A stretch of DNA of 64,000 nt from Cellulomonas sp. B6 (lineage in GTDB: Bacteria; Actinomycetota; Actinomycetes; Actinomycetales; Cellulomonadaceae). Positions 15,886-18,240 of the stretch are shown piece by piece. The stretch is from the NCBI RefSeq assembly GCF_001462455.1, contig NZ_LNTD01000066.1, positions 1 to 64,000 of the forward strand. Reading direction: 5' to 3'. Position 1 is the stretch's first letter; each line of letters opens with the position of its first letter. A model generated the notes under the pieces. The model made no database searches and was not told the origin of the DNA. It saw only the letters and a list, made by a program, of their open reading frames with translations. Made by a program: the position numbers and the translations under genes.

Positions 15886-17355
15886 ATGTTCGACTTCACG
15901 CAGGGCAGCGGCTCGACCGTGCTGGCCGTCGGCGCCCTCATCATCGCGTTCGTCGCGGTGATCGCCCTCATCACCAAGCGCATCCGCCGGGTGCCCCCGA
16001 ACGAGGCCCTCATCATCGTCGGGCGCGGCGCCGGCCGGAACGCGGCGGCCGACGCGGGCCAGCGCGTGGTCGTCGGCGGGCGCGTGTTCGTGTGGCCCGT
16101 GCTGCAGCAGGGCTTCCCGATCTCGCTCGAGCAGCGGCAGATCGGCATCACCGTCGAGGGCGTCGACAAGAACCGCATCAAGCTCGCCATCAAGGCGTCC
16201 ATCAACTTCAAGGTCCGGGGCGACGAGGAGGGTGTGCGGCGTGCCGCGCAGCGCTTCCTGTCGCAGCAGGCCACGCTGACCGACGTCATCAAGGAGTCCC
16301 TCGAAGGCTCGCTGCGCTCGATCATCGGCGACATGACGATCGAGCAGATCATCAGCGACCGGAAGTCGCTGCAGGACGCGGTGGTCAACTCGACCAAGAC
16401 CGACCTGGCCGAGCAGGGTCTGCAGGTCGACCTGCTCAACATCTCCGACATCTCGACGCCCGGCTCCGACTACCTCGCGAACCTCGGCCGCGCCGAGGCC
16501 GCGCGCGCCCGCCAGGTCGCCGAGGTCAAGGAGGCCGAGGCGCAGCAGGTCTCCGAGTTCGCGAAGATCCAGGCGATGGAGTCCATCGCCGAGCGCCAGC
16601 GCGACCTCGCGCTCAAGCAGGCCGGCATCAAGGCCGAGACCGACAAGGCGAACGCCCAGGCGAACGCCGCCGGTCAGCTGGCCCGCGCCGAGCAGGACAA
16701 GCTGGTGGCGCTCCAGGAGCGCGAGGCCCTCGCCGAGAAGGCGAAGGTCACCGAGGAGCAGCTCGACATCGACGTCCGCAAGCCGGCCGAGGCGTCCGCG
16801 TACGCCGCGGTCCAGCAGGCCAACGCCGAGCGTGACGCCGCCAACGCGGCCGCCGAGGCCGACGCGTACCGCCGCATGAAGGTCGCCGAGGCCAACAAGA
16901 TCGCGACCGTGCAGGACGCCGAGGCCGCGGCCGAGGCGACCATCCGCGCCGGCAACGCCGAGCGCGACCGTCAGCTCGCCGAGGCCAAGGCGCTCGAGGC
17001 GCTGGGTCTGGCCCGTGCCGCGGCCGCCAAGGCCGAGGGTCTTGCGCAGGCCGAGGCCACGCACGCGCAGGCCGAGGCGCTGCGCGAGCAGGGCGAGGCC
17101 GTCCTCGCGCAGCAGGTCATCGCGCTGCTGCCCGAGATCGTGCGGGCCGCGGCCGAGCCGATCAGCGGCATCGACCAGCTCACGGTCGTCTCGACCGACG
17201 GTGCGTCGGCCGTGACGAAGACGGTCGGGCAGGTGCTGGGCGAGGGCCAGGAGGTCATCAAGTCCCTCACGGGGCTCGACCTCAGCACGCTCGTCGCGAG
17301 CATCGCCGGCAACGCGGTCACCGGGTCGTCGACGGGCACGAACCACACCGCCTGA
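15886..17355 (+). CDS. SPFH-domain (flotillin-like) membrane scaffold protein
   Basis: 489 residues. One N-terminal membrane segment (about 12-30) precedes an SPFH/band-7 domain (about 35-200: 'RVPPNEALIIVGRGAGR', 'VFVWPVLQQ', 'LSQQATLTDVIKESLEGSLRSIIGDMTIEQIISDR'). A long Ala/Glu-rich coiled coil (about 205-410) contains repeated EAxAxA heptads, and a flotillin-like C-terminus follows. Flotillins oligomerise on the inner face of the membrane and organise ordered lipid domains and their protein cargo. Start is ATG 15886, with AGGAAGGAG upstream. It follows the NfeD-like gene as an operon, closed by a strong terminator at 17374-17411. Confidence 0.92.
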   Translation: MFDFTQGSGSTVLAVGALIIAFVAVIALITKRIRRVPPNEALIIVGRGAGRNAAADAGQRVVVGGRVFVWPVLQQGFPISLEQRQIGITVEGVDKNRIKLAIKASINFKVRGDEEGVRRAAQRFLSQQATLTDVIKESLEGSLRSIIGDMTIEQIISDRKSLQDAVVNSTKTDLAEQGLQVDLLNISDISTPGSDYLANLGRAEAARARQVAEVKEAEAQQVSEFAKIQAMESIAERQRDLALKQAGIKAETDKANAQANAAGQLARAEQDKLVALQEREALAEKAKVTEEQLDIDVRKPAEASAYAAVQQANAERDAANAAAEADAYRRMKVAEANKIATVQDAEAAAEATIRAGNAERDRQLAEAKALEALGLARAAAAKAEGLAQAEATHAQAEALREQGEAVLAQQVIALLPEIVRAAAEPISGIDQLTVVSTDGASAVTKTVGQVLGEGQEVIKSLTGLDLSTLVASIAGNAVTGSSTGTNHTA

Positions 17356-17373
17356 CGCACGGCACGCACGGCA

Positions 17374-17411
17374 CGAGGCCCCGGCCCGGAGCGATCCGGG
17401 CCGGGGCCTCG
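17374..17411. terminator. Strong hairpin after the SPFH gene
   Basis: A perfect 17-bp stem (17374-17390 with 17395-17411) closes on a GCGA tetraloop. It lies 19 bp after the SPFH stop. There is no U-tract, which is common for high-GC actinobacterial terminators. Confidence 0.8.
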
Positions 17412-17450
17412 TCGTCCGGCCACCCGTCGGCCCCGGGTCCCCGGGTCGGT

Positions 17451-17606
17451 GCTGGATCGCTCTCTCACGCCGAGAGTGCGATCCAGCACCCTCCGGCGGC
17501 GAGAGTGCGATCCGGCACCGGCTCGCGCCGAGAGTGCGATCCGGCACCGGCTCGCGCCGAGAGTGCGATCCGGCACCGGCTCGCGCCGAGAGTGCGATCC
17601 AGCACC
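17451..17606. repeat. 29-bp tandem repeat with a leading inverted copy
   Basis: The 13-mer GAGAGTGCGATCC recurs at 17472, 17501, 17530, 17559 and 17588, exactly 29 bp apart. The middle copies share the whole unit, ending CGGCACCGGCTCGCGCC. The array is led by an inverted copy at 17451-17469 (GGTGCTGGATCGC then TCTCTC) that can pair, with one mismatch, with 17472-17490 around a short loop. It occupies the gap between the SPFH terminator and the convergent reductase gene. Confidence 0.92.
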
Positions 17607-17647: not shown

Positions 17648-18085
17648 TCAGGGAGCGGGCGTGAGCACGACGACCGGGATCTGCCGGTCGGTGCGCGTCG
17701 TGTAGGTGTCGTAGTCGGGCCACACGGCGGTCGCGCGCGCCCACCAGGCGTCGCGCTCGGCGCCCGTGACCTCGCGGGCCACGTAGTCGCGCCGCACGGG
17801 CCCGTCCTGCAGCTCGACCAGCGGGTGCGCGAGCAGGTTGCCGTACCAGACGGGGTGCGTCGGCGCGCCGCCCATCGACGCGACGACCGCGTACTCGCCG
17901 TCGTGCTCGACGCGCATGAGCGGCGTCTTGCGGATCTTGCCGCTCTTCGCGCCGAGGGTCCACAGCACGACGACGGGCCGGTCGTTGAGCGTGGTGCCGC
18001 GCGTGCCGCCCGAGCTCTCGATCAGCTCGACCTGCTCGCGGGCGAACTCCGACGTGCTGGGGGCGTACTCACCGACGAGGGGCAT
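17648..18085 (-). CDS. Deazaflavin (F420)-dependent nitroreductase-family protein
   Basis: 145 residues. It fits the DDN/FDOR-A family of split-barrel proteins that use cofactor F420 to reduce quinones or nitro-compounds. Visible hallmarks are '[56 protein letters not shown]', where the Ser-Gly-Lys and Lys-Thr-Pro-Leu loop binds the cofactor phosphate, and '[19 protein letters not shown]'. The 'HPVWYGNL' motif is close to mycobacterial Ddn. Start is ATG 18085; a longer upstream frame is Arg/Ala-rich and unlikely. Enzymatic substrate unknown; menaquinone protection is the usual suggestion. Confidence 0.88.
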
Positions 18086-18144
18086 GCCGTGCACAACTCG
18101 AGCCCGGCACCCCTCATTCCCCGCCCCGGCCCCCGGCCCCTGTC

Positions 18145-18218
18145 GCCGAGTGCGCCAGGACGCCGCCGAGTGCGCCGCTCGTCGCGGGCGCACTCGGGCG
18201 CGTCGTGGTGCGCTCGGC
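18145..18218. repeat. Short direct and inverted repeats related to the 29-bp family
   Basis: GCCGAGTGCGCC occurs at 18145-18156 and again at 18165-18176, and its inverse (GGCGCACTCGG) lies at 18187-18197, followed by a further partial inverse near 18208-18218. The core GAGTGCG is shared with the 17472-17600 array, so these may be members of one intergenic repeat family. The inverted copies could also act as a terminator for the importer operon on the minus strand. Confidence 0.6.
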
Positions 18219-18240
18219 GGTGAGGGTCAGGTGGTGAGGG

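Follow-up and report, generated by a model that had tools for sequence, protein, structure and literature searches.

A Dispersed Family of Directional Repeats at Gene Ends in Cellulomonas and Its Candidate AbiEi-Nuclease Partner

A tandem array of 29-bp units between two gene ends of Cellulomonas sp. B6 is probably one of dozens of 3'-end site clusters bound by an AbiEi/Vsr-like protein encoded elsewhere in the genome. Judged from sequence comparison, the pairing of this dispersed site family with an AbiEi-nuclease gene is well supported by correlation and layout. Together, the sites and the gene of ten species suggest a bacterial repeat-and-protein pair of a new kind. The window analyzed here is the whole stretch of 64,000 nucleotides (contig NZ_LNTD01000066.1, positions 1 to 64,000). 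G-numbers denote genomes, with G000 being the window's own genome, and L-numbers denote fetched loci.

The Array and Its Surroundings

The 13-nt core GAGAGTGCGATCC was found five times on the + strand with an exact 29-bp period (starts 17472, 17501, 17530, 17559, and 17588). At no more than one mismatch, six cores were found in the window, compared with 0.18 expected by chance, and none of 100 shuffles reached six. Thus, the tandem array led by an inverted copy, as described in the initial annotation, is real. The leading copy and the first unit lie within a 28-nt inverted repeat that is 82% complementary. The array occupies a 292-bp gap between an SPFH gene and a reductase gene, whose 3' ends face each other across it. 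The following features were found in this region:

15886..17355, + strand, SPFH/flotillin gene with its 3' end towards the array (Pfam Band_7 and Flot; gene model)
17373..17412, no strand, perfect 18-bp stem with a 4-nt loop, immediately 3' of the SPFH gene and before the array (inverted-repeat search)
17454..17466, - strand, inverted leading unit, core with one mismatch (repeat and core search)
17472..17484, + strand, core GAGAGTGCGATCC of unit 1 (core search)
17501..17513, + strand, core of unit 2 (core search)
17530..17542, + strand, core of unit 3 (core search)
17559..17571, + strand, core of unit 4 (core search)
17588..17600, + strand, core of unit 5 (core search)
17648..18094, - strand, F420H2-dependent quinone reductase-like gene with its 3' end towards the array (Pfam PF04075, TIGR00026; gene model)
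18144..18219, no strand, quartet of a different unit, CGCCGAGTGCGCC, in the order ++-- with spacing 20/23/20, the two inverted copies having 2 mismatches (repeat search)

The linkers of the array resemble each other and there are no unique spacers, which rules out CRISPR, as had been claimed from the sequence. No Rfam matches above the gathering score were found in seven sources, the window and six array loci.

The stem at 17373..17412 is the ordinary hairpin of the SPFH gene. In G054, whose SPFH gene is 98% identical, the corresponding gap is present without the array, and a similar stem, judged by eye to be less perfect, follows the gene. The variable copy number suggested as one possibility is thus supported between species. 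In G087, G092, and G083 (L265, L267, and L273), an inverted pair of units, degenerate in G087 and G092, lies directly 3' of the SPFH stop, where several other genomes have an ordinary hairpin; reuse of such pairs as terminators is possible. In G049 (L271), the gap after the SPFH gene is occupied by a different, longer tandem repeat with a unit of about 74 bp by eye.

The second gap (18144..18219) had been assigned to the same family. Short direct and inverted repeats do occur there, but their unit CGCCGAGTGCGCC differs from the array core. Copies of GCCGAGTGCGCC numbered 0-10 per genome, compared with 0-9 for the reversed control, in 80 genomes of the genus other than G000. This gap was therefore rejected as a member of the array family, its unit being different and not amplified in the 80 genomes. 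A scan of the window for quartets at one mismatch found none; the second-gap quartet requires two.

Distribution of the Site Family

A profile was built from 297 sites of five genomes, selected by the 13-nt core. The unit is directional: a C-rich tract at positions -16 to -8 is followed by GYGAGAGNGCRATCCRGY over 18 nt. Variation within the 18-nt core consists mostly of purine-purine or pyrimidine-pyrimidine exchanges, plus one free base. The C-tract stays with the unit's own strand in sense units, in antisense units, and in those between convergent genes alike.

In G000, 25 exact cores were found over 8 contigs (reversed control, 0), and other clusters reveal a broader core. Of 81 Cellulomonas genomes, ten have 33-268 copies of GAGAGNGCRATCC each and the remaining 71 have 0-5 (reversed control, 0-2). 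Outside the genus, no genome in an order-wide sample of 396 had more than 7 copies. Since units sit at contig ends in several draft assemblies, the counts for drafts are probably minimal. The motif is thus neither confined to this locus nor lacking in close relatives, and the dispersed intergenic family proposed in the initial annotation is borne out by both the 25 cores and the ten array-rich genomes.

Among the matches listed in a scan of genome contigs, single matches to a 14-mer were found in many unrelated organisms. Eight viral contigs had one match each; these were taken as chance, and a viral origin was rejected. One cluster of G000 (L029:458-568) has a variant core, GAGAGGTCGATCC, in three copies together with one GAGAGGACGATCC. 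Part of this variant core, GAGGTCGATCC, was found in four copies beside a truncated gene in G087 (L388:1460-2046). The variant may be a dialect of the site family.

The Candidate Cognate Gene and Its Product

In a comparison of array-neighbour genes, a gene with a DNA-binding type product was found beside sampled arrays in five of eight carriers. Its copy in the window's own genome is as follows:

G000:C125:220-1134, strand not given, cognate AbiEi-nuclease-like gene (homology search)

Full-length orthologs were found in exactly the ten array carriers among the 81 genomes, with E-values of 1.8e-129 or better and, for the other nine carriers, 66-93% identity to the G000 protein. Non-carrier G087 has only a truncated remnant (residues about 185-305) beside degenerate units; the 13-nt core is not among the units around the remnant, so the five exact cores of G087 lie elsewhere. 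For the 70 remaining non-carriers, best matches to the G000 protein were 8.9e-26 or worse, and the search of 81 genomes found no ortholog in G092. The full-length gene thus accompanies arrays in 10/10 carriers and 0/71 non-carriers. The probability of this co-occurrence is 5e-13 if genomes are independent, which they are not; since the carriers are close relatives, the association is confounded by descent.

In a one-gene tree of SPFH, the array-poor genomes G087 and G092 group with the carrier G093 (98/97), so the loss of the gene seems to have been followed by fading of the sites. The losses of gene and sites in these two genomes would represent one or two events and may be a single loss. Deeper branches of this tree are weak (67/90), including the placement of G010 and G006, which have neither arrays nor the gene.

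When 3 mismatches in 18 were allowed, units were found to flank the cognate gene on both sides in all ten carriers. The nearest downstream units are antisense to the gene in 10/10, and upstream units have both orientations. On the maps of the five complete genomes, the fractional position of the gene is 0.45-0.47. In G003, the genome for which both neighbours were named, these are PflA and 3-hydroxyacyl-CoA dehydrogenase-like (NCBIfam), with no adjoining gene for an AbiEii nucleotidyltransferase toxin. A homolog of the PflA-like neighbour adjoins sampled arrays in 6 of 8 genomes.

A structure model predicts three parts for the cognate protein: an AbiEi-type winged helix, the C-terminal domain of AbiEi, and a domain like that of Vsr and homing endonucleases. 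Pfam AbiEi_1 (PF09407) matched all ten cognate proteins. A match to the MTES_1575 nuclease family scored 26.4 bits, below the curated cut-off of 38.2; MTES_1575 is described as a Vsr-family REase (PMC3710099). Models were built from the 10 orthologs (pLDDT 76) and from 45 homologs (pLDDT 90.6, pTM 0.87). Residues 1-187 of the predicted structure matched AbiEi (6y8q, Z 10.9) with a high rmsd of 7.7 over 174 residues, and 1zel (Z 7.0) with an rmsd over 5. For residues 190-296, the best matches of the predicted structure were the I-Bth0305I homing endonuclease (3r3p; Z 10.2, rmsd 3.2 over 95, TM 0.69 of target), an endonuclease-like protein (3hrl; Z 9.6), and Vsr (1cw0; Z 8.7, rmsd 3.4 over 99). 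I-Bth0305I has a Vsr-like fold, and here it and Vsr match one domain. Vsr was not among the structural matches listed for an earlier, lower-quality model; the 45-homolog model does match it. Residues E195, D227, E238, and D240 are invariant in the 10 orthologs; in the 45 homologs, D227, E238, and D240 are invariant and E195 nearly so.

Spacing and Placement of the Sites

Spacings of convergent pairs fall into groups of about 21-22, 29-33, and 40-43 bp, both in the first five genomes and in three held-out ones; a fourth group at 51-54 bp is clear in the held-out set only. Outside the main peak of 27-36 bp, convergent pairs followed a 10.5-bp period (n=21, R=0.63, p 5e-5 to 2e-4). The same period was found for convergent pairs of the held-out genomes (n=24, R=0.63, 0/20000 jitters). 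Divergent pairs showed no clear phasing (p 0.05-0.18), and for same-orientation pairs beyond the main peak p was about 0.08 at 10.5 bp, a period of 13-14 bp fitting better. Among the roles first suggested for the array, a binding array is the likely reading given this helical phasing of convergent pairs, and the sites are likely to be double-stranded DNA binding sites.

A home-made gene finder was used to place 161 clusters, in stretches fetched from eight carriers, relative to genes. Eleven clusters touch predicted coding sequence and 6 lie at stretch ends. The other 144 clusters comprise 55 in convergent, 81 in tandem, and 8 in divergent gaps, compared with 11, 100, and 27, respectively, for array-free gaps longer than 60 bp in the same stretches. 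In tandem gaps, the upstream stop is nearer for 59 of 81 clusters (median 24 vs. 85 bp). Thus, with respect to gene ends, clusters favour sites after stops and convergent gaps, and divergent gaps are rare.

In the five complete carriers, which all have dnaA within the first 2 kb, the middle 40% of the map, which is opposite dnaA, contains only 14 of 128 pooled clusters, gene-flanking clusters being excluded. The deficit was found in each genome (p 9e-5 to 0.006). For G083, 46 of its 49 map positions were used; for G003, the positions were 39 matches of a 12-base pattern; and the length of G049 was rounded to 4.1 Mb. Pooled p-values overstate independence, since many array loci have orthologs in other species.

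This deficit is what would be expected if the arrays were chromosome-organising or regulatory sites placed by selection rather than by self-copying, and served by a nucleoid-associated factor with a site layout like that of Noc or SlmA. Sites of the latter two are likewise reported as underrepresented in the terminus region (PMC4726725), and helical phasing suits bound arrays. We nevertheless regard such a role as unlikely, though with a real chance of being right. The preference for post-stop and convergent gaps looks like tolerance, array presence differs at one locus between close relatives, the protein has a nuclease-like domain, and 71 of the 81 genus members live without the array family. 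Moreover, terminus depletion may reflect only less conserved DNA there.

The positions after stop codons could also indicate an element acting at the RNA level, as hairpin terminators or as mRNA-stabilising 3' stems; the initial annotation had suggested RNA stems protecting the SPFH and reductase 3' ends. Two further observations fit this role. In G083, G092, and G087, an inverted pair lies after the SPFH stop, where several other genomes have an ordinary hairpin, and at the one core base that varies freely, the two arms of inverted pairs match each other at a frequency above expectation (68% vs. 41% expected, and 63% vs. 33% expected). Direct pairs show the same agreement, which duplication can account for. 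The first unit 3' of a stop was + 97 times and - 97 times, giving no orientation bias to transcription, and the C-tract follows the unit strand. In would-be stems, G-U pairs numbered 114 and A-C mismatches 189, pairs between convergent genes being counted from both sides. Given these counts, that an RNA role does not predict helical phasing, and that Rfam gave no match in the seven sources, it appears improbable as a general explanation; some inverted pairs may still act as terminators.

Linkers resemble one another inside a cluster and differ from one cluster to the next, which indicates that local copy number is shaped by tandem duplication. This is the pattern of an ordinary minisatellite (VNTR, MIRU-like) expanding without a cognate protein, which would leave unexplained both the recurrence of one 18-nt core in dozens of places that are not linked and its match with one gene, and we consider it highly improbable. 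A strict REP/RAYT system, in which palindromic REPs are mobilised by a Y1 (HUH) transposase, shares the extragenic clusters, both orientations, the convergent-gene preference, and the repeat-flanked gene, but has practically no chance of applying here, as Y1_Tnp (PF01797) was found in 0/10 carriers and, among the 81 genomes, only in the non-carrier G004, and the unit is directional and non-palindromic.

Homologous Genes With Other Repeats

In total, 39 loci of homologs (L389-L427) were analyzed, including 19 where the pattern was first seen and 20 fetched later as a check. Homologs were identified by alignment to the G000 protein, with 24-31% identity in 35 of 39. Pfam matches among the 45 homologs were MTES_1575 (19), AbiEi_1 (11), AbiEi_4 (5), and DUF559 (2). 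The flank score counts a shared 11-mer, with one mismatch allowed, that has at least 5 occurrences and is represented in both flanks; it was devised after the 19 discovery loci had been seen, and only the 20 later loci serve as a check.

Private flanking repeats (score of at least 5) were found at 10/19 discovery loci, 12/20 later loci, and 0/26 control genes, the latter a small set taken from mixed genomes. Some of these scores reflect low-complexity or plain tandem repeats (L398, L424, and L425), and excluding these three leaves 9/19 and 10/20. Scores under 5 were obtained for 9/19 and 8/20 loci, and the gene of G000 itself scores 2. Compared with their own 20 shuffles, 10/19 discovery and 14/20 later loci exceeded all; among the ten orthologs 8 did so, the gene of G000 not being one of them. 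Many of the flanking repeats form ++-- quartets at 19 or 20 bp. Repeats in L389-L427 often have CGAGTTCG-like cores with 19-bp spacing.

Quartets with a CGAGCGCGG-like core make up a second dispersed family. Seven of them were found in 80 stretches from carriers (330 kb), always between predicted genes, compared with 0 after one shuffle of each stretch:

L176:1866, L188:6219, L213:774 and 2386, L228:4341, L233:74, and L234:3162, quartets with a CGAGCGCGG-like core

These quartets resemble the repeats adjoining an AbiEi-nuclease homolog of G094 (L427). The second-gap quartet of the window has the same form and a related unit, and may belong, as a dispersed copy, to another site family of the AbiEi type, the same kind of element.

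Proposed Explanation

Under the preferred reading, in which the array is a site cluster for the AbiEi/Vsr-like protein, this protein would bind the 18-nt core, adjacent copies sitting on one helix face, and would repress its own gene, as AbiEi proteins do. It is quite possible, although we propose it tentatively, that the nuclease domain drives site copying into tolerant places after stop codons, in a REP/RAYT- or homing-like manner with an unrelated enzyme. Where the gene is lost, the sites would fade. More speculatively, genes combining AbiEi with a Vsr-like nuclease might form a class of self-spreading elements, each carrying its own operator arrays and copying them. Paralogs would have private site families on both sides of the gene, scattered in successful lineages to tens or hundreds of gene ends, and would be homing- or RAYT-type parasites partly tamed by the cell.

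Among the open-access papers listed for Cellulomonas repeats, for AbiEi/DUF559/Vsr combinations, and for the core as text, no title or beginning of an abstract describes the pairing of a dispersed site family with an AbiEi-nuclease gene, and the papers listed for the core are unrelated by title. REP/RAYT is already known; in this actinobacterial genus, a similar layout goes with a different protein fold, and related genes there show it with other repeats. If binding holds, AbiEi-type genes that lack an adjoining toxin gene would gain a testable role, the arrays would offer a natural genome-wide set of sites with spacing rules set by the helix, and there would be a second case in which to ask how short intergenic repeats arise and persist.

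Comparison With Known Systems

REP elements are reported to be frequent between convergent genes (PMC1525189). In Stenotrophomonas, REPs are described as palindromes with a GT(A/G)G head, and the RAYT gene as flanked by repeats in inverted orientation (PMC2817692). The Cellulomonas family resembles REP/BIME and RAYT in its dispersed extragenic clusters with both orientations, often between convergent genes, and in the inverted repeats flanking the gene. It differs in that the carriers have no Y1 transposase, the unit has a C-tract instead of a palindrome with a GT(A/G)G head, and the protein is AbiEi plus Vsr-like.

AbiEi and Rv2827c are reported to bind inverted repeats of 23 bp, the gaps being 3 bp or 13 bp, about one turn apart (PMC7319586). 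These type IV antitoxin autorepressors are similar to the Cellulomonas protein in the predicted fold of residues 1-187, and their sites are likewise paired and inverted, with gaps about one turn apart. Unlike in AbiE toxin-antitoxin systems, the G003 gene has no adjoining AbiEii, an extra nuclease-like domain is present, and sites lie on the downstream side of the gene as well and are scattered over the genome.

I-Bth0305I and Vsr share with the Cellulomonas protein the predicted fold of the catalytic domain, and its acidic residues are conserved. Unlike in these enzymes, the putative nuclease domain is fused to an AbiEi unit. Sites of Noc and SlmA are described as palindromic and bound by ParB- or TetR-type proteins (PMC4726725). 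Like them, the Cellulomonas sites number in the tens and are scarce near the terminus; unlike them, the arrays are directional and go with an AbiEi-type protein.
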